Source: Candidatus Thalassospirochaeta sargassi (GTDB lineage Bacteria; Spirochaetota; Spirochaetia; UBA9216). From it: a stretch of DNA of 64,000 bases. The translations under genes were made by a program, and so were the position numbers. This document shows, piece by piece, positions 3,105 to 50,890 of the stretch. Below the pieces are notes generated by a model, which did no database searches, was not told the DNA's origin, and saw only the letters and a list, made by a program, of their open reading frames with translations. Where the stretch lies: contig JAQQAL010000022.1 of the NCBI GenBank assembly GCA_028532855.1, positions 68,844-132,843 on the forward strand, written 5' to 3'. The stretch's first letter is position 1. Each line of letters opens with the position of its first letter.

Positions 3105-4253
3105 CTAATTCAACGAAAGCAGTACACCGGCAGCAATTGCTGATCCGATAACCCCCGCAACATTCGGTCCCATTGCATTCATAAGAAGGAAGTTGCCCGG
3201 ATCTTCTTCCTGCCCGACCTTCTGTACTACACGGGCAGCCATCGGAACCGCAGAGACCCCTGCTGCTCCAATCATCGGGTTGATCTTTCCACCACTTAGT
3301 TTGCTCATAAGCTTACCCAGTAAGACCCCGCCGCCGGTGCCTATACCGAAAGCAATACATCCCAGAACAATAATAAATATGGTCTGAAAGTTGAGAAAGT
3401 GTTCGGCCTGCATCTTTGAGCCGACCGATATTCCAAGAAAGATAGTAACAATGTTGATAAGCTCGTTCTGAGCTGTTTTAGACAGTCGCTCTGTTACACC
3501 GCATTCCTTGAAAAGGTTACCAAGCATCAGCATACCGATAAGCGGGGCGGATGCGGGAATTAGCAGGGCTGTTACAATTGTAGTTACTATCGGAAAGATG
3601 ATCTTTGTCCTCTTTGAAACCGGTTTCGGATCAGCCATCCTGATAAGACGCTCTTCCTTTGACGTTAGAGCTCTTATGATAGGTGGCTGTATAATCGGTA
3701 CAAGAGCCATGTAGGTATATGCTGCAACGGCAATTGGTCCCAGAAGATGAGACGCGAGTTTGGACGTCAGATAAATTGCAGTTGGACCGTCCGCACCGCC
3801 GATAATTGCGATTGAACAGGCTTCAGCAAAGTTGAAGCCTAGATCATGAGCGGCAAGGAAAGGGATTGTTCCCAGTGCCTTTGCACCCAGAAGAGTTGCA
3901 AATATACCAAGCTGAGCAGCAGCCCCCAGAAGGAATGTCTGGGGCTTTCCCAGGAGTGGACCGAAGTCGGTCATGGCTCCAATGCCCATAAAAATAATCG
4001 GCGGGAAAATACCGATCTTGACACCGTAGTAGAAGTAGTACAATAGTCCACCCTCGTCCAGAATACCAGTCATCGGAAGGTTGACAAGTATGGCACCGAA
4101 ACCGATGGGTATGAGGAGAAGAGGCTCATACTGTTTGGCTATGGCTAGATATATCAACAGTCCGCCAACACCCATCATGACAAGATTCTGCCATGTGAGT
4201 GCCTGAAATGCCGTACTGTCGAGAAAACTCGCGAATAAATCGAAAAAACTCAC
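3105..4253 (-). CDS. mmdB: Sodium-translocating acyl-CoA decarboxylase, beta (membrane) subunit
   Basis: 382 residues, strongly hydrophobic, with the family signature [16 protein letters not shown] and the conserved segments [18 protein letters not shown] and [14 protein letters not shown]. This is the OadB/MmdB/GcdB subunit, the carboxybiotin decarboxylase that couples release of CO2 to export of sodium ions. The start is GTG at 4253, with GGAGG 8 bases upstream. It is the last of four genes in the order carboxyltransferase, small anchor, biotin carrier, beta subunit, the same kind of set as methylmalonyl-CoA decarboxylase of Veillonella and Propionigenium. The substrate of the complex is set by the carboxyltransferase, not by this subunit. 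Confidence 0.9.
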
Positions 4254-4265
4254 TAAAAGCCTCCG

Positions 4266-4751
4266 TTAGCCTATGTCCATCAGCGGCTGGCCTTCGGTTA
4301 CGTTAGCGCCTTGGGTTACATGTATAGCTGTAACCGATCCGGTGTGGGTAGCGAAGACTTCAATGTCCATTTTCATGGCCTCCATAACAATCAGAAGATC
4401 ACCTGATTTGACGGATGCACCCTGAGCAACCTTAATTTCCTTGATTGTCCCTGTAATTGCAGCTTTTTCGGTAGCTCCTCCGGCGGCAGCGGCAGGCGCG
4501 GAAGCAGCGGGAGCGGCAGGTGCAGCGGGAGCGGCAGGTGCGGCTGGAGCTGCAGGTGCGGCTGGGGCTGAAGGAGCAGCAGGTGCCGGTGCGGCAGCAG
4601 CGGGGGTAGGGGCAGCTACGCCACCGGCGGGTGCCGCAAGGCTGACTACGTAGGTCTGGCCCTGGTGTTCAATGTTAAGAACGTTGCCGTTTCTATTTAC
4701 ATTAATGTCATATAAAGCGCCGTCATACTGAAATTTAATGTTCTTGCTCAT
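4266..4751 (-). CDS. mmdC: Biotin carboxyl carrier subunit of the sodium-pumping decarboxylase
   Basis: 161 residues. Residues 1-40 form a small N-terminal strand region, 41-92 are an almost pure Ala-Pro linker (a flexible arm usual for this subunit), and 93-161 are a biotinyl domain with the attachment motif VMEAMKM; Lys127 is the expected biotinylated residue. It carries CO2 from the carboxyltransferase MmdA to the membrane subunit MmdB. AGGAG precedes ATG at 4751, 13 bases upstream. It lies 12 bases before mmdB and 5 bases after mmdD. The Ala-Pro repeat gives a spurious open frame on the opposite strand. Confidence 0.9.
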   Translation of the reverse strand: MSKNIKFQYDGALYDINVNRNGNVLNIEHQGQTYVVSLAAPAGGVAAPTPAAAAPAPAAPSAPAAPAAPAAPAAPAAPAAPAASAPAAAAGGATEKAAITGTIKEIKVAQGASVKSGDLLIVMEAMKMDIEVFATHTGSVTAIHVTQGANVTEGQPLMDIG

Positions 4752-4756
4752 AATTA

Positions 4757-5146
4757 CTATACTCCTGGAACTGTTTTGGATAATTTATTGTTCGCGACCC
4801 ATGGGTCGTATTTAACATAGGTTGATGCCCATGCGGCCGCTGAGGGGCCAGCAGCATCATTTTCTTCGATTGCGAAATAAGCCGCAACCGCTGCGATAAG
4901 CCAGTCAGCATTACCGCCCATTGTCATGCCTTCTGTTGCCGCTGCAACCATCACAGGAAGTGGGAGTGATGACTGCGGTGCGGTTTGTACAGCCGTTGGC
5001 TGTGTAGAGGTGACAGGCTTTTCCGTTTTCTCGTCGGAAAGTCTTCTGATAATAATCATCAGAACACTCAATAAAACGAGGATTGTGAATACAATCAGAA
5101 TGCCGAGGCCTGAAGCCATTAAACTATAACTGAATTGTTCCTGCAT
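4757..5146 (-). CDS. mmdD: OadG/MmdD-family small membrane subunit of the decarboxylase
   Basis: 129 residues with one N-terminal membrane helix (about residues 9-32), a charged and proline-rich linker, and a C-terminal segment (about 70-129) resembling the delta/gamma subunit tails that dock the carboxyltransferase. OadG-type subunits assemble the soluble carboxyltransferase with the membrane beta subunit. Position between mmdA and mmdC supports the call. GGAG lies 11 bases before ATG. Confidence 0.75.
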   Translation of the reverse strand: MQEQFSYSLMASGLGILIVFTILVLLSVLMIIIRRLSDEKTEKPVTSTQPTAVQTAPQSSLPLPVMVAAATEGMTMGGNADWLIAAVAAYFAIEENDAAGPSAAAWASTYVKYDPWVANNKLSKTVPGV

Positions 5147-5160
5147 TTGTTTACTTACTC

Positions 5161-6708
5161 CTACAAGGGTATATTGCCGTGTTTTTTAACCGGCCGGTCT
5201 TCTCGTTTACGTAGATTCATTTCAAGAGCTCTGATAAGCTCGATTCTTGTGAATTCCGGATCTATTATATCATCAACAAGTCCGTAACCTGCTGCTACAT
5301 ATGGATTCATGAATTCCTGCTGGAACTCAGCTATTTTTTCGGCTCTTTTTGCAGCAGGATCATCGGCTTCTTTTATTTCTTTTCTGGAAATAATATTTGC
5401 AGCACCTTCAGCTCCCATTACCGCAATTTCTGCTGTAGGATAAGCGAGCACTCTGTCGTAACCAAGAGACTTTGAAGACATTGCAATCATTGAACCGCCG
5501 TACGACTTTCTAATTATAAGTGAAAGCTTGGGGACTGTTGCCTCTGCAATAGCATAAAGCAGTTTTGCGCCATGTCTGATAATCCCGCCGTGTTCCTGGG
5601 CAATACCCGGGAGGTATCCCGGTACATCTACCAGGGAGATAATGGGAATATTAAAAGAATCACAGAATCTAAGGAACCTTGCCCCCTTGTCTGAAGAGTT
5701 TATATCAAGAGCAGCAGCCATATAATTAGGCTGATTAGCAAATAGACCGACTGTTCGTCCGTTGAGTTTTGCGAAGCCTACCACAACACTTTTTGCCCAG
5801 TCTTTGTGGACTTCAAGGAAAGATCCTCTGTCAAAAACTTCATCGATTATGTCTCGAACATCATAGGGTTTCTTCGGCTCATCCGGAATGATGGGCATAA
5901 CATTACTTGTTCGGTCCGGGTTATCACCTGTATCAGTAACAGGCGGCTGTTCCTGATTGTTTGACGGAAGATAATCCATTAGAGCACGAATAAAATAATA
6001 ACAGTCTTCTTCTGTTTCAAAACGAAAATGAGCGTTTCCACTTTTCGCGCAATGCGCAGATGCCCCTCCGAGATCTTCATGTGAAATTATCTCTCCGGTC
6101 ACAGCCTTAATTACATCGGGACCGGTAATATACATATGACTCTTACCGTCTACCATGAAGATGAAGTCAGTAATCGCCGGTGAATATACTGCACCGCCGG
6201 CACATGGCCCGAGAATTACCGAAAACTGCGGTATTACACCGGATGATAGGGTGTTGTTTTTGAATATCTTAGCATATCCGTTAAGTGAAAGAATTCCTTC
6301 CTGTATTCTTGCACCGCCGGAATCATTTACCTGTATAAACGGAGACCCGGTTTTAAGAGCCAGGTTCTGTGCTTCCGCAATTTTCTCAGCGTGCATTTCT
6401 CCAAGAGAACCGCCAAGTACTGTAAAATCCTGAGAGGAGATAAACACCTGTTTACCATTAATTTTTCCGCTTCCTGTGACAACTCCGTCGCCTGAAAAGC
6501 GTTTTTTATCCATTCCGAACTCAGTGGTTCTGCCCTTGATGTACGCCTGGCTTTCTATAAAAGAACCTTCATCGGTTATGCCTTCGATGCGTTCGCGTGC
6601 TGTCTTTTTGCCTTTTTCATGCTGTGCTTTTATACGTGCGTCTCCGCCGCCTTTAAGCATTTTGGCTTTTACTTCTTTAAATTCCTGTAACCTTTCTTCG
6701 TTACCCAT
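5161..6708 (-). CDS. mmdA: Acyl-CoA carboxyltransferase subunit of sodium-pumping decarboxylase (methylmalonyl-/malonyl-CoA type)
   Basis: 515 residues of the PccB/MmdA carboxyltransferase family, with two crotonase-like halves. Visible landmarks are NDSGGARIQEG, the oxyanion segments FSVILGPCAGGAVYSPA and VDVPGYLPG, and IIRKSYGGS. It moves the carboxyl group of an acyl-CoA to the biotin carrier. Length fits MmdA (about 510) rather than glutaconyl-CoA decarboxylase GcdA (about 590); an oxaloacetate decarboxylase alpha subunit would be a different fold. I start at ATG 6708 because GGGGG lies 6 bases upstream; a TTG at 6723 in the same frame has no binding site. Because the window also holds an acylating dehydrogenase and an aminotransferase, malonyl-CoA or methylmalonyl-CoA is the likely substrate (inference). 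Confidence 0.85.
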   Translation of the reverse strand: MGNEERLQEFKEVKAKMLKGGGDARIKAQHEKGKKTARERIEGITDEGSFIESQAYIKGRTTEFGMDKKRFSGDGVVTGSGKINGKQVFISSQDFTVLGGSLGEMHAEKIAEAQNLALKTGSPFIQVNDSGGARIQEGILSLNGYAKIFKNNTLSSGVIPQFSVILGPCAGGAVYSPAITDFIFMVDGKSHMYITGPDVIKAVTGEIISHEDLGGASAHCAKSGNAHFRFETEEDCYYFIRALMDYLPSNNQEQPPVTDTGDNPDRTSNVMPIIPDEPKKPYDVRDIIDEVFDRGSFLEVHKDWAKSVVVGFAKLNGRTVGLFANQPNYMAAALDINSSDKGARFLRFCDSFNIPIISLVDVPGYLPGIAQEHGGIIRHGAKLLYAIAEATVPKLSLIIRKSYGGSMIAMSSKSLGYDRVLAYPTAEIAVMGAEGAANIISRKEIKEADDPAAKRAEKIAEFQQEFMNPYVAAGYGLVDDIIDPEFTRIELIRALEMNLRKREDRPVKKHGNIPL

Positions 6709-6747
6709 TGTGACCCCCGCCAAAAAAGATGTGTGTCTTTAAATAAA

Positions 6748-6850
6748 AACCCTACTTATATAAGGACAATTGTCAACCCTATTCGGATCTTTATGTTAAA
6801 AACGCCTTATTGTCTGACAATAATAGCATTAGTTTTTGGTTGCGTAAACA
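6748..6850 (-). promoter_or_regulatory. mmdA promoter with two candidate operators
   Basis: On the minus strand TTGACA (6771-6776) lies 16 bases from a weak -10 TAGGGT (6749-6754). The -35 box is embedded in the palindrome GACAATTGTC (6765-6774). Upstream are a perfect palindrome ATTGTC-T-GACAAT (6809-6821), which fits the TNGTNNNACNA pattern of FadR-type GntR regulators, and TGGTTGCGTAAACA (6837-6850), a near match to the shared TGTTTGCGYAAACA motif. Confidence 0.6.
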
Positions 6851-6878
6851 TTTATTTTTGAAACTTATATCTGTTTAA

Positions 6879-7325
6879 CTATTTATTAAGCAAAGTTTTC
6901 TGAAGCATCAAAATCCATTTTGCAGGTGATGGAATTCTGAAAGCCATTCTATCCAGGTCACCTTTTTCGTTTTTGAAGGATATCTGAATTACAGTATCGT
7001 TTAGCGGTTTATCACAGAAAAAATCTGTAGTACCGATTGTTTTAATAGAATTCTTTGGAATAAATGCTTCAAGTCCTCCAAATCTGGAATGATAATATAC
7101 ACCGTCTCTGACGAGGGCTATTGCACCGGTTTTACGGATAGGTTTTTCAAGTTTGCTCTCCTGACCAAACCAGGTTACGCCGAAGGACGCGAGTATAATT
7201 TGATCTTCTGGATATTTACGAGACAAATGCTGAGATTCGAGATAGCGTATTAGAGCCATAAGGAGAACAATTCCGAATATGACTATCCCAAGCACTGCAG
7301 GGGGAAGATTTACAATAGTGTTCAT
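6879..7325 (-). CDS. Conserved-looking membrane-anchored protein of unknown function
   Basis: 148 residues; not recognised. One N-terminal membrane helix (about residues 9-27) is followed by a soluble part of ~115 residues rich in beta strands, with a layout like a small PH-like domain (short strands ending in a C-terminal helix SPAKWILMLQKTLL). Its ATG overlaps the stop of the preceding gene (TGATG), so the two are translationally coupled and probably act together. Confidence 0.55.
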   Translation of the reverse strand: MNTIVNLPPAVLGIVIFGIVLLMALIRYLESQHLSRKYPEDQIILASFGVTWFGQESKLEKPIRKTGAIALVRDGVYYHSRFGGLEAFIPKNSIKTIGTTDFFCDKPLNDTVIQISFKNEKGDLDRMAFRIPSPAKWILMLQKTLLNK

Positions 7326-7705
7326 CAGATCCTCTTAAGATATTTTATTGCCTTTCTGTAGGCTATTTTTTTACCGAGATTACTTTCGTTAAGTTTCGAG
7401 ATGAATGAAAGTGCTATTTCCTGATCATTTTTGCCTTTTTCTCTTAGTTTTTCAATATAAGCTTTATTTTCTAAAAGTGAAAGGTATACAGGATCAGTGG
7501 CGTTACCGTTAAGGCTGCTCATTATTCCAACATTAACAACAATAAGCAGGGAAATAATTGCCGTTATAAGAAAATCCCAACCAGGATCAGGGACTATATT
7601 TCTAATTATGGAATTGGGGTTTCCGGCATTAAAAATAGAATAAACATCTATTATCATTAGCACAACCAGAATGATGTAAAATATGCGATGTTTCCTTACT
7701 TTCAT
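7325..7705 (-). CDS. Small protein with two membrane helices, unknown function
   Basis: 126 residues; not recognised. Two hydrophobic helices (about residues 8-25 and 45-68) are followed by a charged C-terminal part. I start at ATG 7705, which has GGAG just upstream; an in-frame extension to 7942 would run through a terminator and into the permease gene and is not credible. It overlaps the next gene by one base and follows the permease gene's terminator, so it needs readthrough or its own promoter. Confidence 0.55.
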   Translation of the reverse strand: MKVRKHRIFYIILVVLMIIDVYSIFNAGNPNSIIRNIVPDPGWDFLITAIISLLIVVNVGIMSSLNGNATDPVYLSLLENKAYIEKLREKGKNDQEIALSFISKLNESNLGKKIAYRKAIKYLKRI

Positions 7706-7730
7706 AGGGAGCTCCATTAATTGATAGTTT

Positions 7731-7771
7731 AAAAAAAGGATGCCTGACGGCGTTTTCGCCGTCCAGCATCC
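7731..7771 (-). terminator. Terminator of the NCS2 permease gene
   Basis: GGATGC and GACGGCG pair with CGCCGTC and GCATCC across a TTTT loop (7738-7771, two-base mismatch); on the minus strand the stem is followed by seven T (7731-7737). Confidence 0.9.
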
Positions 7772-7793
7772 TGAAAAACAGATAAACTGGTTT

Positions 7794-9320
7794 TTATTTA
7801 TTGAGAACGTGCCAGTTAGCATGACCAACAGGAATAGCTGCCCATTCGGCTTCAGCTTTTTCCCATGCTTCGTCGGATGCCTCAGCTTCCCAAACGGTGA
7901 GGCCTCTTTCTTCTCTGGTTGCACCAGGAAGAATGTTGTCAAGGAGCATTGTTACAAAAGCTGTAACTGCCATACCGGTTGTGAAAATAGTTTGAAATAT
8001 ATTAGTTATAACATACTGAGCAGAACCGGGATCGCCGGATACCATAGACGCAGCACCGAAGTGAGCGGGGATTGTAAGACCTGCAAAGAAGCCTACACCA
8101 ATGATGAAGAGGTTTCTCGCGTTATTAAGGTTTGTAAACTGAAGGTTGGAAAGACCAGTTGCGGCTATAAGTCCGAACATGGCGAAGAACAGAGCTCCAG
8201 TAATAGGCTGTGGCATTGTAGCAAGAACCATTCCGAATTTTCCAAAGAAGGGAAGTGCGATGAGGATTACACCTGCACAGCGGATAACACGACGGCTTGC
8301 TACTCTCGTAAGACCAATTGAACCGATATTTTCAGAGTATGAAGTAGTACCATTACATGTCTGAAAAATTGATGCGATAAGACATCCTATACCTTCAGCA
8401 CCAATACCCTTTGATATAATCTTAGATGTCGGAACCGGTGCTTCTGCTATTCTTGCGCATGAATAGTAATCACCAACTGATTCAATCATTGAACCAATGT
8501 AACCGGCAAGCATACCGAGGGCACCGGCAAAGGTGATGGCATTAAATGATGGAACACCCCATTTAAACGGAATAATCGGTTTAATCCAGAATACGGGTGC
8601 AGAACTGATAAGTTCAATACCACCTCTGAGGTTGGCCGGATTACCTTCGGGGATAAGGCCTGTAGCTGTTCCTATCCATGCTAGAATCCATCCGAGGATA
8701 ACTGCAAGAAGAATCGGGAAAAGTGCAAACACTTTAGATCTTCTGGAGAAAACCTGAGAAAAGATTACGATAGCTACGAAAGTGGAAAGAGAAATTACCC
8801 AGTTTCCGGCCATCCAGGGAGCTCCAACACCGTAAAGTGCCAGACCTATCATGGCAATTGTAGGTCCAATAACTATCGGGCTGAAAGCTTTTTTAATTAA
8901 GCCCATAAGACCGGTGTAACCAATGATAATTTCAAAAAGTGAAGCTATCATAACTGCAGCACTGACCTGCTGAATCATAATTTCGTAGCCGAACCCTTCA
9001 GCAGCACACATGCCTACAATAGCAAACATTGGTCCGAGGAAGGAAAAAGTACCACCCTGCAGAATCGGCAGTTTGTTTCCGATAGGAGACTGCTGAATCA
9101 GGGTTGTAATTCCAGCACAGAAAAACATTGTTGAGATAAGAAGTGCGAGTTCCGTGGTGGGAAGTCCCATTGCTCCACCTGTTATCATCGGAATGATAAT
9201 AGTAGAACCGAACTGTGTCAGGAACTGCTGAGCACCGAGAAGAAATGAAAGTCCCCATTTCGGTTTAGTACCAATAGGATATACTACCCAACCTTCTCCT
9301 TTTTTTGCTTCGTCGCTCAT
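7794..9320 (-). CDS. NCS2 family nucleobase permease (uracil/xanthine type)
   Basis: 508 residues with about 12-14 membrane segments. NCS2 landmarks include GAQQFLTQFGS in the first helix, LPILQGGTFSFLGP, the GSMIESVGDYYSCARI region carrying the conserved substrate-binding Glu, and QTCNGTTSYSENIGSIG. These transporters import uracil, xanthine, urate or similar bases by cation symport; which base is used cannot be read from sequence. It is divergent from the aldehyde dehydrogenase/aminotransferase genes across a 422-base regulatory gap, and the window holds both pyrimidine (preTA) and purine operons that could use the substrate. ATG at 9320 follows GGAGG. Confidence 0.9.
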   Translation of the reverse strand: MSDEAKKGEGWVVYPIGTKPKWGLSFLLGAQQFLTQFGSTIIIPMITGGAMGLPTTELALLISTMFFCAGITTLIQQSPIGNKLPILQGGTFSFLGPMFAIVGMCAAEGFGYEIMIQQVSAAVMIASLFEIIIGYTGLMGLIKKAFSPIVIGPTIAMIGLALYGVGAPWMAGNWVISLSTFVAIVIFSQVFSRRSKVFALFPILLAVILGWILAWIGTATGLIPEGNPANLRGGIELISSAPVFWIKPIIPFKWGVPSFNAITFAGALGMLAGYIGSMIESVGDYYSCARIAEAPVPTSKIISKGIGAEGIGCLIASIFQTCNGTTSYSENIGSIGLTRVASRRVIRCAGVILIALPFFGKFGMVLATMPQPITGALFFAMFGLIAATGLSNLQFTNLNNARNLFIIGVGFFAGLTIPAHFGAASMVSGDPGSAQYVITNIFQTIFTTGMAVTAFVTMLLDNILPGATREERGLTVWEAEASDEAWEKAEAEWAAIPVGHANWHVLNK

Positions 9321-9501
9321 AAATCCTCCAAAAAAAATATATTAAGAACAGAATTGAGCATTCTGTATCTTGCAGAAAAAAAATAGATTATTATTTTTTG
9401 TAGTCGTGTCTAAAGTCTTGGTTATTTCGGGTTGGTTAATGTAGTGTGTGATATGTGGTGTGGTTACATTAAAATTTAAGTTAAACATAAATAGATACTT
9501 C

Positions 9502-9531
9502 ATAATAAACAATATGTCCGCTGTAAGTCAA
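9502..9531 (-). promoter_or_regulatory. Candidate promoter of the NCS2 permease gene
   Basis: On the minus strand TTGACT (9526-9531) and TATTAT (9502-9507) are spaced 18 bases apart, leaving a leader of about 175 bases. I looked for a purine riboswitch in that leader and do not see one. Confidence 0.5.
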
Positions 9532-9612
9532 TGTTTTATTAGACTTCTGTCAGACTTTAGATAGATTTTAAGTTACAATTTTGAGATCCGTCAAGTTAAA
9601 TTTAACAAAAAA

Positions 9613-9626
9613 TGTTTGCGCTAAAA
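9613..9626. promoter_or_regulatory. Candidate operator, shared TGTTTGC motif
   Basis: TGTTTGCGCTAAAA has an intact left half of the palindromic motif found elsewhere in the window. It lies about 30 bases upstream of the -35 box of the aldehyde dehydrogenase promoter. Confidence 0.45.
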
Positions 9627-9654
9627 AAATCTGATTAATTTACCATATATAGCC

Positions 9655-9717
9655 TTGACCTGAGCTCTAAAGGATATTATTGTGTCTCTATGATCGGTTG
9701 GATCATTGTCTGACAAT
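9655..9717 (+). promoter_or_regulatory. Promoter and downstream operator of the aldehyde dehydrogenase gene
   Basis: TTGACC (9655-9660), 17-base spacer, TATTGT (9678-9683). The perfect palindrome ATTGTC-T-GACAAT at 9705-9717 would lie in the first 30 transcribed bases, a usual repressor position. The same 13-mer occurs at the mmdA promoter (6809-6821). Confidence 0.65.
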
Positions 9718-9742
9718 ATATTTGAAGTGGAGGAGAGCTAAT

Positions 9743-11134
9743 ATGGCAGATCCCAAAGAAGCTGCTGCGTATATAGCAGGTTTGGTTGAAAGAGCACAGG
9801 CTGCTCAGAAGAAGATTGAATTCGCAACTCAGGAACAGGTCGACGACATGTGTGTAAGAATCGCCTGGGCAGGTTGTAAACCCGATTTCGCAAAAAAACT
9901 CGGTGAGTTTGCTGCTGAAGAATCAGGAATGGGTTTTGGACCCGACAAGGTTGGTAAGATTTACGCAAAGGTAAAAGGAACTCTCAGAGATATGAGAGGC
10001 GAGCCCTCAGTCGGTCTTATTGAAGTTGATGATGAGAAGGGTCTGCTGAAATATGCAAAACCTGTTGGTGTTATCGGAGCACTTGTTCCCTGTACCAACC
10101 CTGAAGCTACTCCTTTTGTTAAGGCTCTTGGAGCAGTTAAAACCAGAAATGCAATAATCATGGCTCCGCATCCGAGAACAAAGGGCACCAACAAGATGGC
10201 TATTGATGCTATCCGGGCTGCTCTCAAGGCTAATAATTTCCCTGAGGACCTCGTTATCGGAATCGATGAAGTATCAGTGGAAGCTACTAATGAACTTATG
10301 AAGCAGACTGATCTCGTTCTTGCTACAGGTGGTGCAGGCATGGTTAAGGCTGCATACTCAAGCGGAACACCCGCTTACGGTGTCGGTGCTGGTAACGCTG
10401 TAAGTGTTATAGCTGATGATGCTGATCTTGCTGATGCTGCAAACAAGATTAAAAGATCAAAGATTTTCGATCACGCAACAAGCTGTTCTACAGAAAACTG
10501 CGTACTTATTCCTGAAAATCTTTATGATGATATGGTTAAGGCTCTTGAAGCTGAAGGCGGATACATGGCCGCTGGCGCAGAGAAAGAAGCCCTCCAGGCT
10601 ACAATGTGGGAAAATGGCGTTCTTTCAAGAAATATCGTTGCACAGCCTGCTCAGAAGATTGCAAAGCTTGCAAAGCTTAATATGGGTGAAGACAAGTGCT
10701 TCATCATGGTTGCAGAAGACGGTGTAGGAAAAGAACACCCCTTCTCTGGAGAGAAACTCTCTCCGGTAACAACACTATACAAATATAAAACCTTTGACGA
10801 AGCAATAGATCTTGTTAACAGGATAACTGACTACTCAGGAGCGGGCCACTCAGCTGGCATCCATACTCAGGATGAAAGAAAGGTTAAAGAGCTTTCACGG
10901 AGAGTCAAGGTTTCCAGAATCATGGTAAACCAGCCGCAGTGTCTTGCTAACTCAGGAGCCTGGACAAACGGCATGCCGATGTCTATGACTCTCGGTTGTG
11001 GTACATGGGGCGGAAATATTGCTTCTGAAAATATCACATGGAAGAATCTTCTTAACTACACCTGGGTTTCTTTCGAGATTGAAAACACAATGCCGACAGA
11101 TGAAGAACTATTCGGCAAGATCATGCACGAATAG
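9743..11134 (+). CDS. CoA-acylating aldehyde dehydrogenase (sulfoacetaldehyde/semialdehyde dehydrogenase-like)
   Basis: 463 residues of the aldehyde dehydrogenase superfamily, the short acylating branch with EutE, AdhE N-domain and SauS. The motif HATSCSTENC places the catalytic Cys at residue 248; GGAGMVKAAYSSGTPAYGVG and GHSAGIHT are typical of this branch. It should oxidise an aldehyde to an acyl-CoA with NAD(P). The closest family name I recall is SauS (sulfoacetaldehyde dehydrogenase), but context favours (methyl)malonate semialdehyde: an omega-aminotransferase follows, and the mmdA promoter shares its operator. Start is ATG 9743 with GGAGGAG upstream; an upstream extension to 9680 crosses the promoter and operator. 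Confidence 0.8.
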   Translation: MADPKEAAAYIAGLVERAQAAQKKIEFATQEQVDDMCVRIAWAGCKPDFAKKLGEFAAEESGMGFGPDKVGKIYAKVKGTLRDMRGEPSVGLIEVDDEKGLLKYAKPVGVIGALVPCTNPEATPFVKALGAVKTRNAIIMAPHPRTKGTNKMAIDAIRAALKANNFPEDLVIGIDEVSVEATNELMKQTDLVLATGGAGMVKAAYSSGTPAYGVGAGNAVSVIADDADLADAANKIKRSKIFDHATSCSTENCVLIPENLYDDMVKALEAEGGYMAAGAEKEALQATMWENGVLSRNIVAQPAQKIAKLAKLNMGEDKCFIMVAEDGVGKEHPFSGEKLSPVTTLYKYKTFDEAIDLVNRITDYSGAGHSAGIHTQDERKVKELSRRVKVSRIMVNQPQCLANSGAWTNGMPMSMTLGCGTWGGNIASENITWKNLLNYTWVSFEIENTMPTDEELFGKIMHE

Positions 11135-11157
11135 GCTGCTCGTTAAGCAGGCACAAA

Positions 11158-11181
11158 AACGACGGGGTAATACCCGTCGTT
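11158..11181. other. Intercistronic hairpin
   Basis: AACGACGGG (11158-11166) pairs with CCCGTCGTT (11173-11181). No T-run follows on the plus strand (ATAAAAAAAC), so it is probably an mRNA-stabilising or processing hairpin between the two genes rather than a plus-strand terminator. Confidence 0.55.
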
Positions 11182-11206
11182 ATAAAAAAACATAAGGGGG
11201 GAGCTA

Positions 11207-12529
11207 ATGGCTGGTGAAGATATCAGGGCTCTTGATAAAAAATATAATTTACACTCCTGGAGTGCGCAGAAAGCACTTAATCCGATTGTTGTAGACAAAG
11301 CTGAAGGCATCTTTTTCTGGGACGCTGACGGCAAGAAATACTACGACATGTCATCACAGCTTGTTAACATGAACGTCGGGCATTGCAACAAGAAAATTGT
11401 TAAAGCAATTCAGGATCAGGCGGAAAAGCTGCCGTTTATCGGTCCTGCCTATGCTGTTGATGTCAGAGCTGAGCTTGCAAGAAAACTCATTGAAGAAGTT
11501 GTTCCCGAGATGGGAAAGGTCTTCTTCACAAATGCAGGTGCAGAAGCAAATGAAAACGCAATTAAAATCGCAAGACTTAAAACAGGAAAGCAGAAAATAT
11601 TCAGCGGTTACCGCTCATACCACGGTGCTACCTATGCTGCTGCAAACCTGACAGGTGAACCCAGGAGACTTGCTTCAGAACCCGGAATTCCCGGATTCGT
11701 AAAATTCTTCAATCCTTATATTGAAAGAGAACCTGTAATCAAGTTTGACAGTGAAGAACAGTACACTGAATACTGCCTTGCAAAGCTTGAGGAGCAGATT
11801 ATCTGGGAAGGTCAGGATAATATTGCCGCACTCTTCCTTGAAACTGTTGTCGGTTCAAACGGTGTACTTATTCCACCTAAGGGATACCTCAAGGGTGTAA
11901 GAGAGCTCTGTACTAAATACGGCATCATGATGGTCTGTGATGAAGTAATGGCCGGCTGGGGAAGAACTGGTGAATGGTTCGCTTACATGAACTGGGATGT
12001 AGTACCTGATATGATTACCTTCGCAAAGGGTGTTACATGCGGTTACGTTCCTATCGGTGGAGTTATCGTTTCTAAAGAAATTGCTGAACACTTTGAAGAG
12101 AACGTCCTAATCTGCGGTCTAACTTACAGTGCTCATCTTATGGGCTGTGCCGCAGGTATTGCTACTATCGACGTTTACAAAGAACTTGATCTTATAAACA
12201 GATCTAAAGAAATGGGTAAGGTTATGGCCAAACTCATGGCTGAACTTCAGGAAAAGCATCCGAGTGTAGGCCCTTGCCGAAACATCGGGCTTTTTGGAAT
12301 GGTTGAGTTTGTTAATAAAGAGAATGGCCCCCTTGTTCCTTACGCAAAGGACCCGAAAGGTCTGATGAAACAGATTATCGGCAAACTCAGAGAGAACGGT
12401 TTTACAACCTACTCACATGAGAACATGATCTCTGTATCACCTCCGCTGATTATCACTGAAGAACAGCTTAAAGAAGCCTTTGCAATACTTGATAAGGTTG
12501 CAACATGGGTTGATGAGAATCTTCTGTAG
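11207..12529 (+). CDS. Class III (omega) aminotransferase, candidate beta-alanine/taurine:2-oxoacid aminotransferase
   Basis: 440 residues with class III PLP aminotransferase landmarks: FFTNAGAEANENAIKIAR, SYHGATY, the PLP-phenol aspartate in CDEVMAGWGRTG (Asp245) and the PLP lysine in TFAKGVTCGYVPIGG (Lys274). Such enzymes transaminate terminal amino groups, as in beta-alanine, beta-aminoisobutyrate, GABA or taurine, giving a semialdehyde. The preceding acylating dehydrogenase would take that product. A strong AGGGGGGAGC precedes ATG. Taurine is an alternative substrate, but no isethionate or sulfoacetate gene is nearby and pyrimidine genes are. Confidence 0.8.
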   Translation: MAGEDIRALDKKYNLHSWSAQKALNPIVVDKAEGIFFWDADGKKYYDMSSQLVNMNVGHCNKKIVKAIQDQAEKLPFIGPAYAVDVRAELARKLIEEVVPEMGKVFFTNAGAEANENAIKIARLKTGKQKIFSGYRSYHGATYAAANLTGEPRRLASEPGIPGFVKFFNPYIEREPVIKFDSEEQYTEYCLAKLEEQIIWEGQDNIAALFLETVVGSNGVLIPPKGYLKGVRELCTKYGIMMVCDEVMAGWGRTGEWFAYMNWDVVPDMITFAKGVTCGYVPIGGVIVSKEIAEHFEENVLICGLTYSAHLMGCAAGIATIDVYKELDLINRSKEMGKVMAKLMAELQEKHPSVGPCRNIGLFGMVEFVNKENGPLVPYAKDPKGLMKQIIGKLRENGFTTYSHENMISVSPPLIITEEQLKEAFAILDKVATWVDENLL

Positions 12530-12602: not shown

Positions 12603-13382
12603 TTAAAGATACGACTCAATGAGTTTTATTCGACTTGTAAAATATTCCTTACGCCTGCGGTTAAACTCACCAGGGTCGCCGGTTATACCGATTTCCGCAG
12701 GATTAATATTTTTGAGCTGTTCATGGAGGGATGCAAGGAGATCGTGCCAGCTCATGTCAGTGTGAACGCTGGTTTTGGGAGCATAACCCATAATTTTAAG
12801 ATAGTCTGAACCTGAGTCTTTTTTTATCAGAGCAAGCATTATAAGGTCCTGTGGACTCATCTCTTTAAGAATATCCTCAAAATCGCCTTCGTCATGATAA
12901 AGCCCGCGGTAAAAAAGTTTAAATTCTTCCTCAGCTTTTTTATAATTCTTCTGTTCGTAATATAACTGGGGCAGTAGTGTAATCCCTTTTTTAAGCATAT
13001 ATTCTCTGCATTTTTCAGTATCAAGAAGTGCTTCAGCCTCAGAGAGTAAACCATGTTCAAGATAGGTTGAAGCAATAAAAAAACCAAGAATTGTATCTTC
13101 TGTTTTTTTATATCCCTCGGTTATCACCTCGAACCTGTCTTTAAGGTTTTCAGAACCGCTGAAATTAAGAAAATAATCAAGATAAACCTCAGGCTGTTTC
13201 GGGTATTTTGTAACAGCCTTTTTTAACAGAGCATCTGATTTGTCAAATTCTTTACGTGTTCGATGATAAAGTGCACTATCGATAATTCTTTTCCAGGGTG
13301 CTGTGGAGATGTAAGGAACTACTACCCTGAAGAAGATTACAAGTAGAAAAAGGGCGCCGGGAAGAAAAAGTAATTTAAGCAT
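12603..13382 (-). CDS. Membrane-anchored TPR-like protein, unknown function
   Basis: 259 residues. One N-terminal membrane helix (about residues 4-24) is followed by an all-helical region with TPR-like repeats (the segments around SDALLKKAVTKYPKQPEVYLDY and KKAEEEFKLFYRG are spaced like tetratricopeptide units). It probably acts as a scaffold at the membrane; no specific role can be assigned. AGGAG precedes ATG, and it follows the next gene by 8 bases, so the pair is co-transcribed. Confidence 0.5.
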   Translation of the reverse strand: MLKLLFLPGALFLLVIFFRVVVPYISTAPWKRIIDSALYHRTRKEFDKSDALLKKAVTKYPKQPEVYLDYFLNFSGSENLKDRFEVITEGYKKTEDTILGFFIASTYLEHGLLSEAEALLDTEKCREYMLKKGITLLPQLYYEQKNYKKAEEEFKLFYRGLYHDEGDFEDILKEMSPQDLIMLALIKKDSGSDYLKIMGYAPKTSVHTDMSWHDLLASLHEQLKNINPAEIGITGDPGEFNRRRKEYFTSRIKLIESYL

Positions 13383-13390
13383 TGTAACTC

Positions 13391-13909
13391 CTATAGAACC
13401 TGGAACTTACCTGTCACAGCATCGACTATAACTTTAAAGCTGTGTCTGTCCCTGTTGGTGCATTTTACTATCCAGAAAGGTTTATGTACAAGACTTTGTT
13501 TTAGAATTTCTGAATCAGGTGCAAAAAGAACCTTCATATTATGTATGGATGAATGCATCAGATACGTTTTAGCGGTTTTCAAAGCCTGTTCCTGAGTGTA
13601 ATCCTGTTCGAGGATACCTGCCGTAAGTACTTCTTTCTCCGCTATATCAAAACTGTCTGTGGTCGCTGCATGATTATTAATTAAATCTACCAGGCAGGAA
13701 GCCTTTGTACTTCGACTTTTTCCAAAAAGGGTTTTTACAGTAAAAGAAAAAAGGAACCAGTAGTAGGGGTAATATATTAATTTCTGAACCTGTACCGAAT
13801 GATGCTCGGAATACTTGGAAACAATATTTTTAGCATCATTTTCATTAATCGTGCCGGGTATCAGATTGATTTTTGTTTTGACTGATGTCGTTTCTTTATT
13901 GTCAGGCAT
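13391..13909 (-). CDS. Hypothetical protein
   Basis: 172 residues; not recognised. It has no signal peptide, and a short hydrophobic patch near residues 47-57 (YYPYYWFLFSF). The C-terminal sequence KVIVDAVTGKFQVL resembles the strand ending of PepSY-like or small alpha/beta folds, but this is weak. GGAG lies upstream of the ATG. It sits between the symporter terminator and the TPR-like gene. Confidence 0.45.
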   Translation of the reverse strand: MPDNKETTSVKTKINLIPGTINENDAKNIVSKYSEHHSVQVQKLIYYPYYWFLFSFTVKTLFGKSRSTKASCLVDLINNHAATTDSFDIAEKEVLTAGILEQDYTQEQALKTAKTYLMHSSIHNMKVLFAPDSEILKQSLVHKPFWIVKCTNRDRHSFKVIVDAVTGKFQVL

Positions 13910-13977: not shown

Positions 13978-15525
13978 TTATTTATCGATTTTTTTGTTGA
14001 TCCCGCTTGCTTCCTGAGCCAGGTTAAAATCTGACTTTGCGAGCATGTCCTTGGGGATGGGACCAATCTTAATTGCTTCATCCATTGCTTTGACAATATA
14101 GTCAGCAACCGGATGTGATTTTTGTGTTGCTTTACTGACAATTATAATCAGAAGCCAGGACACAATTAAACCACCGAGCATTGGGTCTATACCTGTTCCT
14201 AATTTTTCAAAAAGGAAGGCACTTAAAGCTCCGCCAATAATTGATGAAAGTGCACCCGGGGTGTTGGCTTTTTTCCACCATACAGCACATACATAAGCAG
14301 GGAGGAAAGCACTACCAAGTACTGATGTTGTGAAAATGGTAACTGCGAAAACTCCCGGAGGATTAAATACCGCAATAATTAAACCAACGATACCGAATAT
14401 AAGTACGAGTATTCTAGATACCCAAACCATCTGATGATCAGTAGCTTTGGGGTGGAAGAAACGCTGGAAGATATCTCTTGAAGCGATTGTACCAACCTGA
14501 AGAAGAATTGAGTCGGCTGTTGACATGATAGCTGCCATGATAGCTGCCATAACGATCCCGGTAACAGCAGCGGGAAGAAGCTCGCTTGCAAGTGTAAAGA
14601 TTGCCATTTCCGGATCTGCAAGATTCGGGAGAACAATGATTGCAAAAATACCGAGGAGGTAGGGAGCTGTTACGAAAAACAGGTTCCAGATTGTAGAATA
14701 TACACCGGCAAGACGCGCAGTTTTGGGGCTTTCCATAGCCATATGTCTTGTTACAACGTGTGGCCAGCCCATGTATCCAACTGAAAAGATAAGAACAGCA
14801 CCAAGCAGGTCGCTCCATGCATATTGGTTAGCAAGATCTTTTCCCCAAATGGAGAGGTATGTTGGATCAATTTGTGCAATTGATTCATTAACGGCTGTAA
14901 ATCCGCCGACGTTAATCATTGTCGCTGCAAATATCCAGATCATACCGATAACCATTACCATTGACTGGAAAAAGTCAGTGTACGCAACTGCAAAGTACCC
15001 GCCCATGAATGTATAGAGCATGATGATCCCAACTGCTATTGCAAGAGCCGCACCATATGGTAGACCTGTTACAAGAGCCATTCCCTTACCCCCGGCAATA
15101 AACTGAGCTAGAACATAAAAGAAAAGAAGGAAAACAGATAAACTGCCGCTTATTAAACGGGTAGCTGCATGCGGGTATCTGTGTTCAAGATATTCGATTG
15201 AAGTTAAAGAACCAAGAATCTTAGAGAGTTTTCTCATTCTTCGACCAATAACCGAAAGGTTTACGACTCCGCCACCGATATCACCTACTGCATACCAGAT
15301 AGACCAGTAACCTGTGGTGTAGCCGGCGGATCCTCCACCGAGAAACATATAACCACTCATTGAGGTTGACTGCAGAGTCATTGCTGTTACGAGAGGGCCA
15401 ACCTTTCGACCTCCAAGAAGATACCCTTCAAGGTCTTTGGCTCCGCCTTTCTTGACAGCCCAGAATCCAATGCCTACTACTACAACGTAGTAAAAAACTA
15501 GAAAAATAAGAACTACTGGGTTCAT
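13978..15525 (-). CDS. Sodium:solute symporter (SSS family)
   Basis: 515 residues with about 13 membrane helices. The start of the protein matches SSS transporters (FLVFYYVVVVGIGFWA, then DLEGYLLGGRKVGPLVTAMT), and helix 8 has MSTADSILLQVGT with the Ser/Thr sodium-site residues. SSS members import proline, pantothenate, acetate, allantoin or nucleobase derivatives with sodium; the substrate is not evident. Its ATG overlaps the stop of a 44-codon gene (TAATG). Pantothenate or a pyrimidine breakdown product would suit the neighbourhood, but this is only inference. Confidence 0.85.
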   Translation of the reverse strand: MNPVVLIFLVFYYVVVVGIGFWAVKKGGAKDLEGYLLGGRKVGPLVTAMTLQSTSMSGYMFLGGGSAGYTTGYWSIWYAVGDIGGGVVNLSVIGRRMRKLSKILGSLTSIEYLEHRYPHAATRLISGSLSVFLLFFYVLAQFIAGGKGMALVTGLPYGAALAIAVGIIMLYTFMGGYFAVAYTDFFQSMVMVIGMIWIFAATMINVGGFTAVNESIAQIDPTYLSIWGKDLANQYAWSDLLGAVLIFSVGYMGWPHVVTRHMAMESPKTARLAGVYSTIWNLFFVTAPYLLGIFAIIVLPNLADPEMAIFTLASELLPAAVTGIVMAAIMAAIMSTADSILLQVGTIASRDIFQRFFHPKATDHQMVWVSRILVLIFGIVGLIIAVFNPPGVFAVTIFTTSVLGSAFLPAYVCAVWWKKANTPGALSSIIGGALSAFLFEKLGTGIDPMLGGLIVSWLLIIIVSKATQKSHPVADYIVKAMDEAIKIGPIPKDMLAKSDFNLAQEASGINKKIDK

Positions 15526-15807: not shown

Positions 15808-16677
15808 ATGACTGAGGAAGAATGCTTTAAAAAGGTAATTAATATAAAATATCCTGAAGGTTTTGTCTGTCCAAGATGCCGTAGCAATGCTTATTGGGTG
15901 AAACCAGGTAGACGAATAATCATATGTAGGTCATGTCGAAAGGAAATTTCTCCGCTATCCGGCAGTATGTTCAGTAGAAGTCATCTTCCTTTAAATCTAT
16001 GGTTTAATATTGTTGAAATGATGACAAACTCACCAGACAGGGTTATTACAGCTAAAACTATTTTCAAAGAACTAGGCCTGGGGTCATACCGAACAGCATG
16101 GGAAGCTTTGAACAAAATTCGTTTTGTCATAAGCCACAATGAACCCAGGATTAAACTCAAGGGTCATATTGAGTTTGATGAAATGGTTATAAACGGAATA
16201 GGTTCCGAATATAATAAGGTAAGCATACTTGGAGCCCTTGAAATAGAAGGTAAAAAAAGACTTACGCTCCAAATGATAAAAAATCCAGATGAAATGAATA
16301 TTAAAGATTATCTTAAGAAAAAGATTGATAAAAAAGCTACGGTAATAACTGATCCTGATAAGCTGTATATACATAACTGGCTTGTTCTGAACAGGATAAA
16401 GCAGAAGAGTTCGGTTAAACATTACGGGGCAAATTTTATGAGCATACATATAATCCTGCAGGATGTTAGATACGGTCTGCGAAACGGCCATCACAGTGTG
16501 TCCGAAAAATATCTGCAGCGGAATCTTGATGAATACGTTTTTACTTTTAACAATAACGATGATAGGACCAAAGCATATGAAAAGGTTCTGAATTATATGG
16601 TCAATACAAAACTCACAGCTTATAGAAGCGCCGAAATACCCAAAAGATCTTTTCTTTCTATAATAGCGGGTGAGTGA
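15808..16677 (+). CDS. IS1595/ISXO2-like transposase
   Basis: 289 residues. The N-terminal zinc ribbon has CPRC and CRSC pairs (about residues 22-25 and 40-43) and a helical region follows. The DDE-type domain has the first acidic residue in IEFDEMVING and the second in VITDPDKL, and ends with the YLQRNLDEYVFTFNNN segment typical of IS1595 (usually YLdEFxFRyN). I see no convincing terminal inverted repeats or target duplication in the flanks (15700-15807, 16678-16733), so it may be an immobile remnant or a domesticated copy. It is the only transposase-like gene in the window and separates two pyrimidine-related units. Confidence 0.75.
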   Translation: MTEEECFKKVINIKYPEGFVCPRCRSNAYWVKPGRRIIICRSCRKEISPLSGSMFSRSHLPLNLWFNIVEMMTNSPDRVITAKTIFKELGLGSYRTAWEALNKIRFVISHNEPRIKLKGHIEFDEMVINGIGSEYNKVSILGALEIEGKKRLTLQMIKNPDEMNIKDYLKKKIDKKATVITDPDKLYIHNWLVLNRIKQKSSVKHYGANFMSIHIILQDVRYGLRNGHHSVSEKYLQRNLDEYVFTFNNNDDRTKAYEKVLNYMVNTKLTAYRSAEIPKRSFLSIIAGE

Positions 16678-16733: not shown

Positions 16734-18041
16734 TTACTCGTCGTACTGGCCGACTATGATATCCCGTTTACACGGTACATCTTCCGCATATACAGCTTCA
16801 GAGCCCTTACCGAATTGGTCCTGGGGTTTGAAAACTACCTTACCGGGAGTAATGCAGTTTGCAACCGGACAGACATGTAGGCAGAGCTGGCAGCCAACAC
16901 ACTTGTCTTCATCAATTTCAACCTTACGATTCTCAGGATCCCAGGTTATAGCCTGATGTGCGCCATCAAAACATGAAACATAGCATCTACCACAGCCGAC
17001 ACATTTATCATAGTCAATCTGCGGGTATACCTTGAAATCTCTTTCAAGATCCTCCGCCGGCACAATGTTCTGAAGGGCTTTACCGCAGAAATCGTTGATA
17101 GATTTGTAGCCTTTTTCTTCCATCCAGATGGAAAGACCGCTAATCATATCTTCAACAATTCTGTATCCGTACTGCATTATAGAAGTAGTGAACTGAAGGT
17201 TGGTACAGCCGAGTGAAATAAACTCAGCGCAGTCTTCCCATGTTTCAATTCCGCCTATTCCAGAAATAGGAATGTCTTTAAGGTATTCATCCTGTTTCAT
17301 ATTGGCAATAAATCTAAGTGCAATAGGTTTTGCTGCAGCGCCAGAATATCCTGAGATTGAAGATTTCCCGTTTACAACGGGAAGTGCTGTCATCTGATCA
17401 AGGTCAATGTGTGTAATTGATTTGATCGTGTTGATTGCTGCTATAGCGTGACCGCCGGCTTTGATGGCAGCGGTTGCAGGTACTTCCATCTTCTCGATAT
17501 TCGGAGTCATTTTTAGCATTACAGGAATGTCAGTACCAGCGAGAGTAGCCTTAGTGAACTTCTCAATAAGCTCGAGATTTGCTCCAACATCGGAACCCAT
17601 GTTTTCCTGAGTCATCTGGGGGCATGAAAAGTTGCATTCAATAATATCCGCACCTGCCTCAGTAACATCTTTTGCAAGTCTGGTCCAGTCCTCTTCGTTT
17701 GAACCCATGATTGATACTATGAGGCACTTAGTAGGATAGTCTGCTTTTAGTTTTCGAAGAAACTTAAGATTCTCTTCATAGGGGTGGTCGGAGATCTGTT
17801 CCATGTTTTTGAACCCGAGGAAGGGCTGTCCTTCTTTTCGAACATGGTCAAAACGGGGAGAACATTCATCCGGTATATATGTACCGATTGTTTTGAAAAC
17901 AACTCCGCCTCCGCCTGCTTCGAGGAACTTTGAACACATTTCATAAGTTGCCGCAACAGGTGATGAGGAGAGCATAAACGGGTTTTCACATTTAAAACCC
18001 AGGAAGTCTACTGATAAATCTGCGTGTGTTCTCTTTTTCAT
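16734..18041 (-). CDS. preA: NAD-dependent dihydropyrimidine dehydrogenase subunit PreA
   Basis: 435 residues: an FMN-binding dihydroorotate-dehydrogenase-like barrel (about 10-310) and a C-terminal ferredoxin with two 4Fe-4S motifs ([11 protein letters not shown] and [12 protein letters not shown], about residues 340-395). The active-site motif ECNFSCPQM places the catalytic Cys at residue 140. With PreT it forms the bacterial counterpart of mammalian DPD, which interconverts uracil/thymine and the 5,6-dihydro forms with NADH. The ATG shares one base with the preT stop (TAATG), so the subunits are translationally coupled. Confidence 0.95.
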
Positions 18042-20285: not shown

Positions 20286-20345
20286 ATTATAAATGCTTTT
20301 TTGTGAATTCGCAACATAAAAGTTTAAAAAATGTTTGCCTAAACA
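20286..20345. promoter_or_regulatory. eamA-preTA promoter with shared operator
   Basis: Minus strand: TTGCGA (20309-20314), 17-base spacer, perfect TATAAT (20286-20291). TGTTTGCCTAAACA at 20332-20345 is a nearly perfect palindrome of the shared motif and sits between this promoter and the divergent AEC gene, 20 bases before the latter's start codon. Confidence 0.65.
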
Positions 20346-32500: not shown

Positions 32501-32503
32501 ATT

Positions 32504-33424: not shown

Positions 33425-33433
33425 TTTAACTCC

Positions 33434-34390: not shown

Positions 34391-34394
34391 GTTT

Positions 34395-35561: not shown

Positions 35562-35592
35562 TTTATCCTCCAAAATTAGTATAATGATATCA

Positions 35593-35662
35593 TATTTGCG
35601 CAAACAATTAAACAAATGTTTTGGAAAACAAGGCTGGCAAAAAGCAAAAAATGGGTTATAGT
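35593..35662. promoter_or_regulatory. ackA/panB divergent control region with two shared operators
   Basis: TATTTGCGCAAACA (35593-35606) and TGTTTTGGAAAACA (35617-35630) are two copies of the shared palindrome, 24 bases apart. The first overlaps a possible minus-strand -35 (TTGTTT) for ackA. On the plus strand TGGCAA (35635-35640), 16-base spacer and TATAGT (35657-35662) would drive panB. Confidence 0.6.
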
Positions 35663-35697
35663 AGAGTAACCTGAAAGTATCAAATAAGGAGAAAAAA

Positions 35698-42990: not shown

Positions 42991-43044
42991 TGTTTGCCTT
43001 AACATTTGCGTAAACATGATACCAGATAAATTTGAATATAGCAA
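42991..43044 (-). promoter_or_regulatory. Promoter of the first carbamoyl hydrolase gene with tandem shared operators
   Basis: Minus strand TTGCTA (43039-43044), 17-base spacer, TATCAT (43016-43021). CATTTGCGTAAACA (43003-43016) abuts the -10 box and TGTTTGCCTTAACA (42991-43004) follows it, both copies of the shared motif, as for a repressor. Confidence 0.7.
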
Positions 43045-47586: not shown

Positions 47587-49006
<1,420 letters not shown>

Positions 49007-50875: not shown

Positions 50876-50890
50876 TACTTCCTCCAGTAT

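Follow-up and report, generated by a model that had tools for sequence, protein, structure and literature searches.

The window analysed here, a stretch of 64,000 nucleotides (positions 68844-132843 of contig C22) from Candidatus Thalassospirochaeta sargassi, probably encodes an anaerobic, reductive route of pyrimidine degradation that would end in an energy-conserving, Na+-exporting decarboxylation of malonyl-CoA. Its core lies at 3105-12529, where a decarboxylase operon of the MmdADCB type (mmd), a CoA-acylating aldehyde dehydrogenase (ALDH) and a class III aminotransferase (AT) had been recognised in a preliminary description, a gene content that profile matches and sequence bear out (Table 1). 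The source genome comprises 3.84 Mb in 53 contigs with a completeness rating of 100%, and its closest named relatives belong to the Spirochaetaceae/Spirochaetales; C-numbers denote its contigs and L-numbers individual loci, mostly from relatives.

In the proposed pathway, PreTA would reduce uracil to dihydrouracil, a dihydropyrimidinase would open the latter to N-carbamoyl-beta-alanine, and a carbamoyl hydrolase would remove the carbamoyl group to leave beta-alanine. The AT would convert beta-alanine to malonate semialdehyde, with GdhA recycling 2-oxoglutarate, and the ALDH would retain the carboxyl group in forming malonyl-CoA. The biotin-dependent membrane complex MmdADCB is then predicted to yield acetyl-CoA and CO2 with export of Na+, and a phosphotransacylase together with AckA would turn acetyl-CoA into acetate and ATP, giving a calculated net of uracil + 4 H2O -> acetate + 2 CO2 + 2 NH3 + 2[H]. 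Every enzymatic step, each substrate, the transport of Na+ and the choice of phosphotransacylase are assigned from protein family and context, whereas the genes, the operators, the conservation of the operators and the recurrent gene clusters are directly established. The uracil branch is supported along four lines, namely an operator shared by its genes, the clustering of related ALDHs with pyrimidine and mmd genes, the presence of the same ALDH clade in inositol operons, and the lack in this genome of the enzymes on which the usual roles of MmdA depend. The preliminary description had added a thymine branch, in which the same enzymes would act on methylated intermediates, through beta-aminoisobutyrate, to give propionyl-CoA; this is possible, and no evidence specific to it was found in this analysis.

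Shared operators

The motif here called operator 2 was found by aligning the ALDH and mmdA promoters, and consists of TGTTTRCGCWA as part of the palindrome TGTTTGCGCAAACA. Since it was derived from these two promoters only, its presence at the remaining genes is independent evidence. TGTTTRCGCWA occurs exactly at six sites in the genome, four of them in the window (upstream of mmdA, the ALDH gene, ackA and carbamoyl hydrolase a) and two inside coding genes. With up to two mismatches to the palindrome, six window sites were found, upstream of mmdA, ALDH-AT, eamA-preT-preA, ackA, carbamoyl hydrolase b and gdhA, versus 0.46 +/- 0.67 in shuffled sequences, none of 100 shuffles reaching six; among the 1,389 near-palindromic 14-mers of the window having at least four G+C, TGTTTGCGCAAACA alone reaches six. 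The whole genome holds 15 sites of this kind; six fall within the window, that is, within 1.7% of the genome (binomial 1e-7), as do the two best-matching sites of all. The preliminary description had linked AT, ALDH and Mmd through shared operators and had placed preTA and the carbamoyl hydrolases nearby. The former claim holds, two operators being common to the mmdA and ALDH-AT promoters, whereas the latter is too modest: the pyrimidine genes are indeed nearby, but they also share operator 2, as do ackA and gdhA.

Operator 2 is also conserved. In 697 kb of related loci, all sites with at most two mismatches lie at the ALDH, mmdA or eamA-preTA genes of L030, L031, L032 and L071, so that an absence of the operators from related genomes, which had been named beforehand as an argument against the pathway, is not what was found at these three units. 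Among general palindromes upstream of the genes of distant relatives there was no common motif. Of the nine sites elsewhere in the source genome, one precedes the gene for an NCS1 permease at a distance of 121 bp, and a homologue of this permease sits in the pyrimidine cluster of L044. Two operator-2-like sites were also noted, one at C43:2319 (L177), before a gene that precedes a set for a 2-oxoacid oxidoreductase and SucCD-like proteins, and one at C21:50532 (L176), 197 bp from a glycerol-dehydrogenase-like gene.

The distribution of operator 2 bears as well on where the beta-alanine comes from. At 31277-36564, ackA and the genes for an S58 peptidase, PanE and an M20 deacylase stand in a row around a single operator 2 site, with ackA, the peptidase gene and panE following one another behind the site and panB divergent from ackA, an arrangement that is possibly linked to beta-alanyl peptides or pantothenate. 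Together with the PutP/PanF-like SSS symporter, it could mean that these compounds are the main input to a beta-alanine module with the same malonyl-CoA/Na+ end. We regard this as unlikely, given that operator 2 also precedes preTA and the carbamoyl hydrolases and that an NCS2 permease is encoded between mmdA and the ALDH gene; the two inputs are not exclusive, and both may feed beta-alanine.

A second motif, operator 1 (ATTGTCTGACAAT, with the 11-bp core TTGTCTGACAA), fits the GntR/FadR pattern TNGTNNNACNA. The core has four exact sites in the genome: at mmdA, at the ALDH gene, within an MFS gene, and, at a distance of 36 bp, upstream of a gntR gene on contig C28, outside the window, which encodes a GntR protein with an FCD domain (FadR type). 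Their number is not above chance (about 2.5 expected per genome by a rough composition-based estimate), and a scan for ATTGTCTGACAAT allowing up to three mismatches gave 25 matches versus 26 expected, so that only the exact sites and their placement count. Among the closest relatives, operator 1 is kept at the ALDH gene (L030, L071) and at gntR (L135, from the genome of L071). Its weight thus lies in placement and in this conservation rather than in its count, and since the conservation extends to the ALDH gene and gntR and not to mmdA, the FadR-type GntR is likely to regulate ALDH-AT and its own gene.

Conserved gene clusters

ALDH homologues were compared in 45 loci, namely the window and those 44 of 80 named loci that lie outside a Rhodobacteraceae group. 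MmdA is encoded within 10 kb of the ALDH in 14 of the 45 (the window, L032, L033, L035, L037, L038, L039, L042, L047, L059, L064, L066, L067 and L071; L070, with only a 40% MmdA match, was left out), whereas random proximity would be expected in well under 1% (an estimate that sets 20 kb against 3-5 Mb, the loci being partly non-independent). The two genes are directly consecutive in L038, L047, L059, L064, L066 and L067, in the order ALDH-MmdA-OadG-carrier-OadB in L047 and AT-ALDH-MmdA in L066 and L067, and in L035 a single cluster holds SSS, AT, ALDH, a nitrilase-type ureidopropionase, NCS2, MmdA, the carrier and OadB. An MmdA homologue was present somewhere in 16 of 18 further genomes searched.

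Clustering of the ALDH with pyrimidine genes has been found in three separate lineages. It is seen in the relatives of the window and, separately, in L040 (with PreTA, ureidopropionase, HydA and AT), L041 (with ureidopropionase, AT and PreTA) and L044, a metagenome-assembled genome of the Bacillota (with PreTA, NCS1, HydA, AT and M20). The contig of L041 was binned as Thermoplasmatota, yet its ALDH falls within the spirochaete clade, which reflects misbinning or transfer. A further source of malonate semialdehyde is the inositol (iol) pathway, whose aldolase releases this compound. In the Clostridia loci L055, L062, L063 and L072 (C. ultunense, Schnuerera and others), a SauS-like ALDH gene directly follows iolB and closes the inositol operon, in the position expected of IolA, and L064 combines iol genes and MmdA with the ALDH.

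In the tree, the pyrimidine-, Mmd- and iol-linked ALDHs form one set of 43 rows, in which the pyrimidine and Mmd labels are interleaved, and which is separate from a paralogue in the source genome itself, from the Rhodobacteraceae homologues and from AdhE. The branch leading to 48 rows including Rhodobacteraceae and the paralogue is starred 97/95, internal support being mixed and long branches flagged. We tentatively suggest that ALDH and Mmd could form a portable energy module from malonate semialdehyde to acetyl-CoA in the Spirochaetota and partly in the Bacillota, serving pyrimidine, beta-alanine and inositol catabolism and, where acetyl-CoA carboxylase is lacking, also feeding fatty acid synthesis.

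A transaldolase-like protein of about 360 residues (PF00923) recurs beside the ALDH in L043, L046, L047, L059 and L064. Its neighbours are MmdA and sometimes a GntR protein 45-49% identical to that of the source genome, and FadR-type sites occur at its promoter in L059 and L064. Could this protein be another source of malonate semialdehyde?

Aldehyde dehydrogenase and aminotransferase

The best profile matches of the ALDH, whose true start is the ATG at 9743 (the open reading frame beginning at 9680 is too early), are the SauS, AdhE and EutE-type CoA-acylating models, and models for the decarboxylating, IolA-type methylmalonate-semialdehyde dehydrogenase were not among its best 25. Cys248 aligns with the catalytic cysteine of AdhE; comparison with AdhE revealed many clade-specific positions and no decisive carboxylate-binding residue. 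The family of the AT fits a role as beta-alanine aminotransferase.

Both enzymes could alternatively belong to a taurine route, in which the AT would act on taurine and the ALDH would serve as an acylating sulfoacetaldehyde dehydrogenase of the SauS/SqwD type, with Mmd and the pyrimidine genes as functionally separate neighbours. SauS is the best NCBIfam model for the ALDH, and the best solved relative of the AT is a taurine:2-oxoglutarate aminotransferase (6jix, 479 bits). However, the ALDH scores 545 bits against a curated cut-off of 600 (NF047625), below which all clade members tested and the paralogue likewise remain, and since ALDHs from inositol operons and pyrimidine clusters score alike, the SauS model does not discriminate. 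The recurring neighbours are MmdA, PreTA, HydA, ureidopropionase and iol genes, none of which points to taurine; the genes surrounding the ALDH include no recognisable sulfoacetate-CoA ligase, and operator 2 is common to the genes for ALDH, PreTA, the carbamoyl hydrolases and AckA. A better candidate for a sulfonate enzyme is the paralogue mentioned above, a second ALDH (49% identical) beside transketolase halves. A taurine route is therefore quite unlikely. The second ALDH is encoded on contig C12 (L151 7869-13583) and is followed by a CoA-transferase, a 3-hydroxy-3-methylglutaryl-CoA-lyase-like protein and the two transketolase halves, a set that is possibly a variant of the sulfoglycolytic transketolase pathway ending in sulfoacetate. 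The Rhodobacteraceae homologues were considered as SauS representatives, but no sau genes adjoin them, the neighbours being a TRAP transporter, a thiamine-pyrophosphate enzyme and dehydrogenases of the sugar type, and hence they did not serve as references for sulfonate enzymes.

Decarboxylase and missing enzymes

Carboxyltransferase, biotin carrier, gamma/delta and membrane beta subunits are encoded together in one operon. Among solved structures, a single relative of the membrane subunit was found, the beta chain of oxaloacetate decarboxylase (6iva); GGADGPT and a second motif are conserved, and Na+ transport coupled to decarboxylation by MmdADCB is predicted. No Carboxyl_trans protein other than MmdA occurs in the genome, and neither a methylmalonyl-CoA mutase nor a biotin carboxylase was found there, TIGR00514 giving only weak, carbamoyl-phosphate-synthase-like matches. 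Without a mutase, a biotin carboxylase or a second carboxyltransferase, MmdA can serve neither the usual succinate-propionate pathway nor an ATP-dependent carboxylase.

The NCBIfam name for MmdA is methylmalonyl-CoA decarboxylase, which would suit a scheme in which Mmd and ALDH-AT are separate, share only a catabolic regulator, and Mmd acts on methylmalonyl-CoA of other origin. The missing mutase and the six loci with consecutive ALDH and MmdA genes render such a separation highly improbable. Another role would be anabolic, the ALDH, or Mmd reversed by the Na+ gradient, supplying malonyl-CoA for fatty acid synthesis. Genes of type II fatty acid synthesis (FAS II) are indeed present at C24:92000-107000 (L174 5097-13189), with FabF, FabD, FabH and FabV assigned by family match and FabG and FabZ by reading, and neither AccC nor AccD was found in the genome; an absence of acetyl-CoA carboxylase in Spirochaetes has been recorded earlier (PMC3199775). 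But a role in catabolism is indicated by operator 2, which ackA, preTA and the carbamoyl hydrolases have in common and which was not found near the fab genes. As the main function, fatty acid supply thus seems very unlikely, and given the Fab proteins and the missing carboxylase it is a possible side role.

Pyrimidine genes and points against the pathway

Of the enzymes proposed to act ahead of the AT, both M20 carbamoyl hydrolases are close to the N-carbamoyl-beta-alanine amidohydrolase 8c46, which is the best solved relative of hydrolase b. A homologue of the nitrilase-type ureidopropionase is encoded at C11:421545 and matches a protein in L034, L035 and L040. The preliminary description had asked for a dihydropyrimidinase under the same operators: a gene of the dihydropyrimidinase family lies just outside the window, and the closest solved relative of its product is a dihydropyrimidinase, but operator 2 is present only as a weak site with three mismatches 45 bp upstream, a match equalled by about 3% of random 210-bp pieces.

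Several observations weigh against the proposed pathway. This hydantoinase, the only one in the genome, adjoins a cluster of genes for uric acid and is possibly the HyuA of that pathway (PMC12507026). Judged by family or by structure, both ALDH and AT have their closest matches among sulfonate enzymes (the SauS model and Toa, respectively), and MmdA and OadG fall below the curated cut-offs, OadB being well above. With respect to regulation, operator 1 was not found at mmdA in L030, L032 and L071, for which reason it has been demoted as linking evidence; operator 2 is lacking at ackA in the L032 genome, the one relative checked, and was not found near the genes for NCS2, SSS, Ptb, PduL or the nitrilase-type ureidopropionase. 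Finally, the membrane subunit gene is not adjacent to mmdA in L038, L059 and L064, and an ALDH this close occurs in only 6 of 198 sampled genomes of the phylum, including that of the window.

Other features of the window

The uric-acid type cluster occupies 49679-63840 and encodes YgeW, SsnA, xanthine dehydrogenase subunits, YgeX, YgeY and, at 58095, a UacX-like dihydroorotate dehydrogenase. Four small conserved genes at 6879-7705 and 12603-13909 hold their positions in relatives, in the gap between NCS2 and mmdA and in that between AT and SSS. Between SSS and preA lies a transposase-like open reading frame (15808-16677), a homologue of which is likewise placed in L030 and L032 and missing there in L034 and L035.

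Table 1. Genes and operator sites in the window and the dihydropyrimidinase gene beyond its end
Feature	Position	Strand	Basis or remarks
MmdB/OadB membrane decarboxylase subunit, predicted Na+ pump	3105-4253	-	TIGR01109 526 bits (cut-off 190.6), PF03977
MmdC biotin carrier with EAMKM biotinylation motif	4266-4751	-	sequence
OadG/MmdD gamma/delta subunit	4757-5146	-	PF04277 26.3 bits (cut-off 27) and operon position
MmdA carboxyltransferase	5161-6709 (ORF, open reading frame, reaches 6723)	-	PF01039; TIGR01117 761 bits (subfamily cut-off 998.8)
Operator 1 before mmdA, ATTGTCTGACAAT	6809-6821		exact match; not conserved at mmdA in relatives
Operator 2 before mmdA, TGGTTGCGTAAACA	6837-6850		conserved in L032, L071, L145
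Two small conserved genes, function not assigned	7325-7705 and 6879-7325	-	homologues in matching position in L032, L035, L037, L071
NCS2 nucleobase permease	7794-9320	-	PF00860; TIGR03173 206 bits, below its cut-off
Operator 2 before ALDH, TGTTTGCGCTAAAA	9613-9626		conserved in L030, L031, L032, L071
Operator 1 before ALDH, ATTGTCTGACAAT	9705-9717		exact match; conserved in L030, L071
CoA-acylating ALDH, proposed malonate-semialdehyde dehydrogenase forming malonyl-CoA	9743-11134	+	NF047625 SauS match, genomic context, tree, alignment
Class III AT, proposed beta-alanine aminotransferase	11207-12529	+	NF004718 539 bits (cut-off 472)
Na+/solute symporter SSS (PutP/PanF-like)	13978-15525	-	PF00474, TIGR00813 above cut-off; syntenic in L030, L032, L034, L035
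PreA, NAD-dependent dihydropyrimidine dehydrogenase	16734-18041	-	NF006183 597 bits (cut-off 335)
PreT subunit	18041-19327	-	adjoins preA; GltD-like flavoprotein family
EamA transporter, first gene of eamA-preT-preA	19348-20277	-	PF00892; 20 bp from preT
Operator 2 before eamA-preT-preA, TGTTTGCCTAAACA	20332-20345		sequence identical in L030, L032
Ptb, phosphate butyryl/acetyltransferase-like	25560-26456	-	no operator
Genes for PanE and the S58 peptidase, following ackA	32504-34429	-	TIGR00745, PF03576
AckA acetate/propionate kinase	34395-35564	-	TIGR00016 401 bits
Operator 2 before ackA, TATTTGCGCAAACA	35593-35606		absent at ackA in L032 genome
M20 carbamoyl hydrolase a (hydantoinase/carbamoylase family)	41716-42963	-	TIGR01879 368 bits (cut-off 204)
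Operator 2, weaker, before hydrolase a, TGTTTACGCAAATG	43003-43016		3 mismatches; motif scan
M20 carbamoyl hydrolase b (hydantoinase/carbamoylase family)	43119-44387	-	TIGR01879 345 bits
Operator 2 before hydrolase b, TGTTTGCCCAAACA	44440-44453		motif scan
Operator 2 before gdhA, TGTTTGCGTAAAAA	47627-47640		motif scan
GdhA, NADP-type glutamate dehydrogenase	47660-49006	+	NF006929 751 bits (cut-off 536)
PduL phosphotransacylase	49108-49677	-	NF011652 228 bits (cut-off 209)
Dihydropyrimidinase-family protein (HydA)	C22:134817-136190, ~2 kb beyond window end		TIGR02033 573 bits (cut-off 393)

Comparison with known systems

As a genomic hypothesis, the joined pathway is well supported. The preliminary description knew of no described pathway of this kind, and a literature search, incomplete in coverage, likewise found no paper in which Pyd, or malonate semialdehyde, is linked to an ALDH that forms malonyl-CoA and to a Na+ decarboxylase. 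The described endings of bacterial Pyd pathways are PydE, a malonic semialdehyde reductase acting with PydD, and malonate-semialdehyde dehydrogenase (MSDH) (PMC7332683). The steps through PreTA, dihydropyrimidinase, carbamoyl hydrolase and beta-alanine aminotransferase to malonate semialdehyde would be alike, whereas here a CoA-acylating ALDH would form malonyl-CoA for a Na+-pumping decarboxylase in place of reduction or the decarboxylating MSDH. The MSDH ending yields the same acetyl-CoA, CO2 and NADH, with the energy of decarboxylation left unconserved. If the proposed pathway is true, pyrimidine fermentation would conserve energy beyond acetate kinase, since a decarboxylation lost as heat via MSDH would charge a Na+ gradient, and a specific and readily assayed prediction follows for anaerobic degraders of uracil and inositol.

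MmdADCB is the Na+-translocating methylmalonyl-CoA decarboxylase of the Veillonella/Propionigenium type, which the complex of the window resembles in its subunit set, gene order, biotin carrier and membrane beta subunit motifs. It differs in that the genome is without mutase and biotin carboxylase and in that Mmd is tied to a source of malonate semialdehyde, so that malonyl-CoA would be the expected substrate. This would account for the presence of mmd operons where a genome has no methylmalonyl-CoA mutase, and would have a bearing on the origin of malonyl-CoA in organisms with FAS II but without acetyl-CoA carboxylase. The ALDH belongs to the same family as SauS/SqwD (PMC12890257), whose substrate is an analogue with a sulfonate replacing the carboxylate, but it lies below the curated cut-off, and its neighbours are mmd genes and genes of pyrimidine and inositol catabolism, not those of sulfonate metabolism; if the proposed pathway is true, a set of SauS-matched ALDHs would be reassigned as malonate-semialdehyde dehydrogenases forming malonyl-CoA. 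The reductive uric acid pathway (PMC12507026), represented by the adjacent cluster in the window, has a separate substrate and may share the hydantoinase. Finally, inositol catabolism ending in IolA also produces malonate semialdehyde, and differs from the situation in C. ultunense, Schnuerera and others, where the ALDH directly follows iolB, and in L064, where MmdA has been added.

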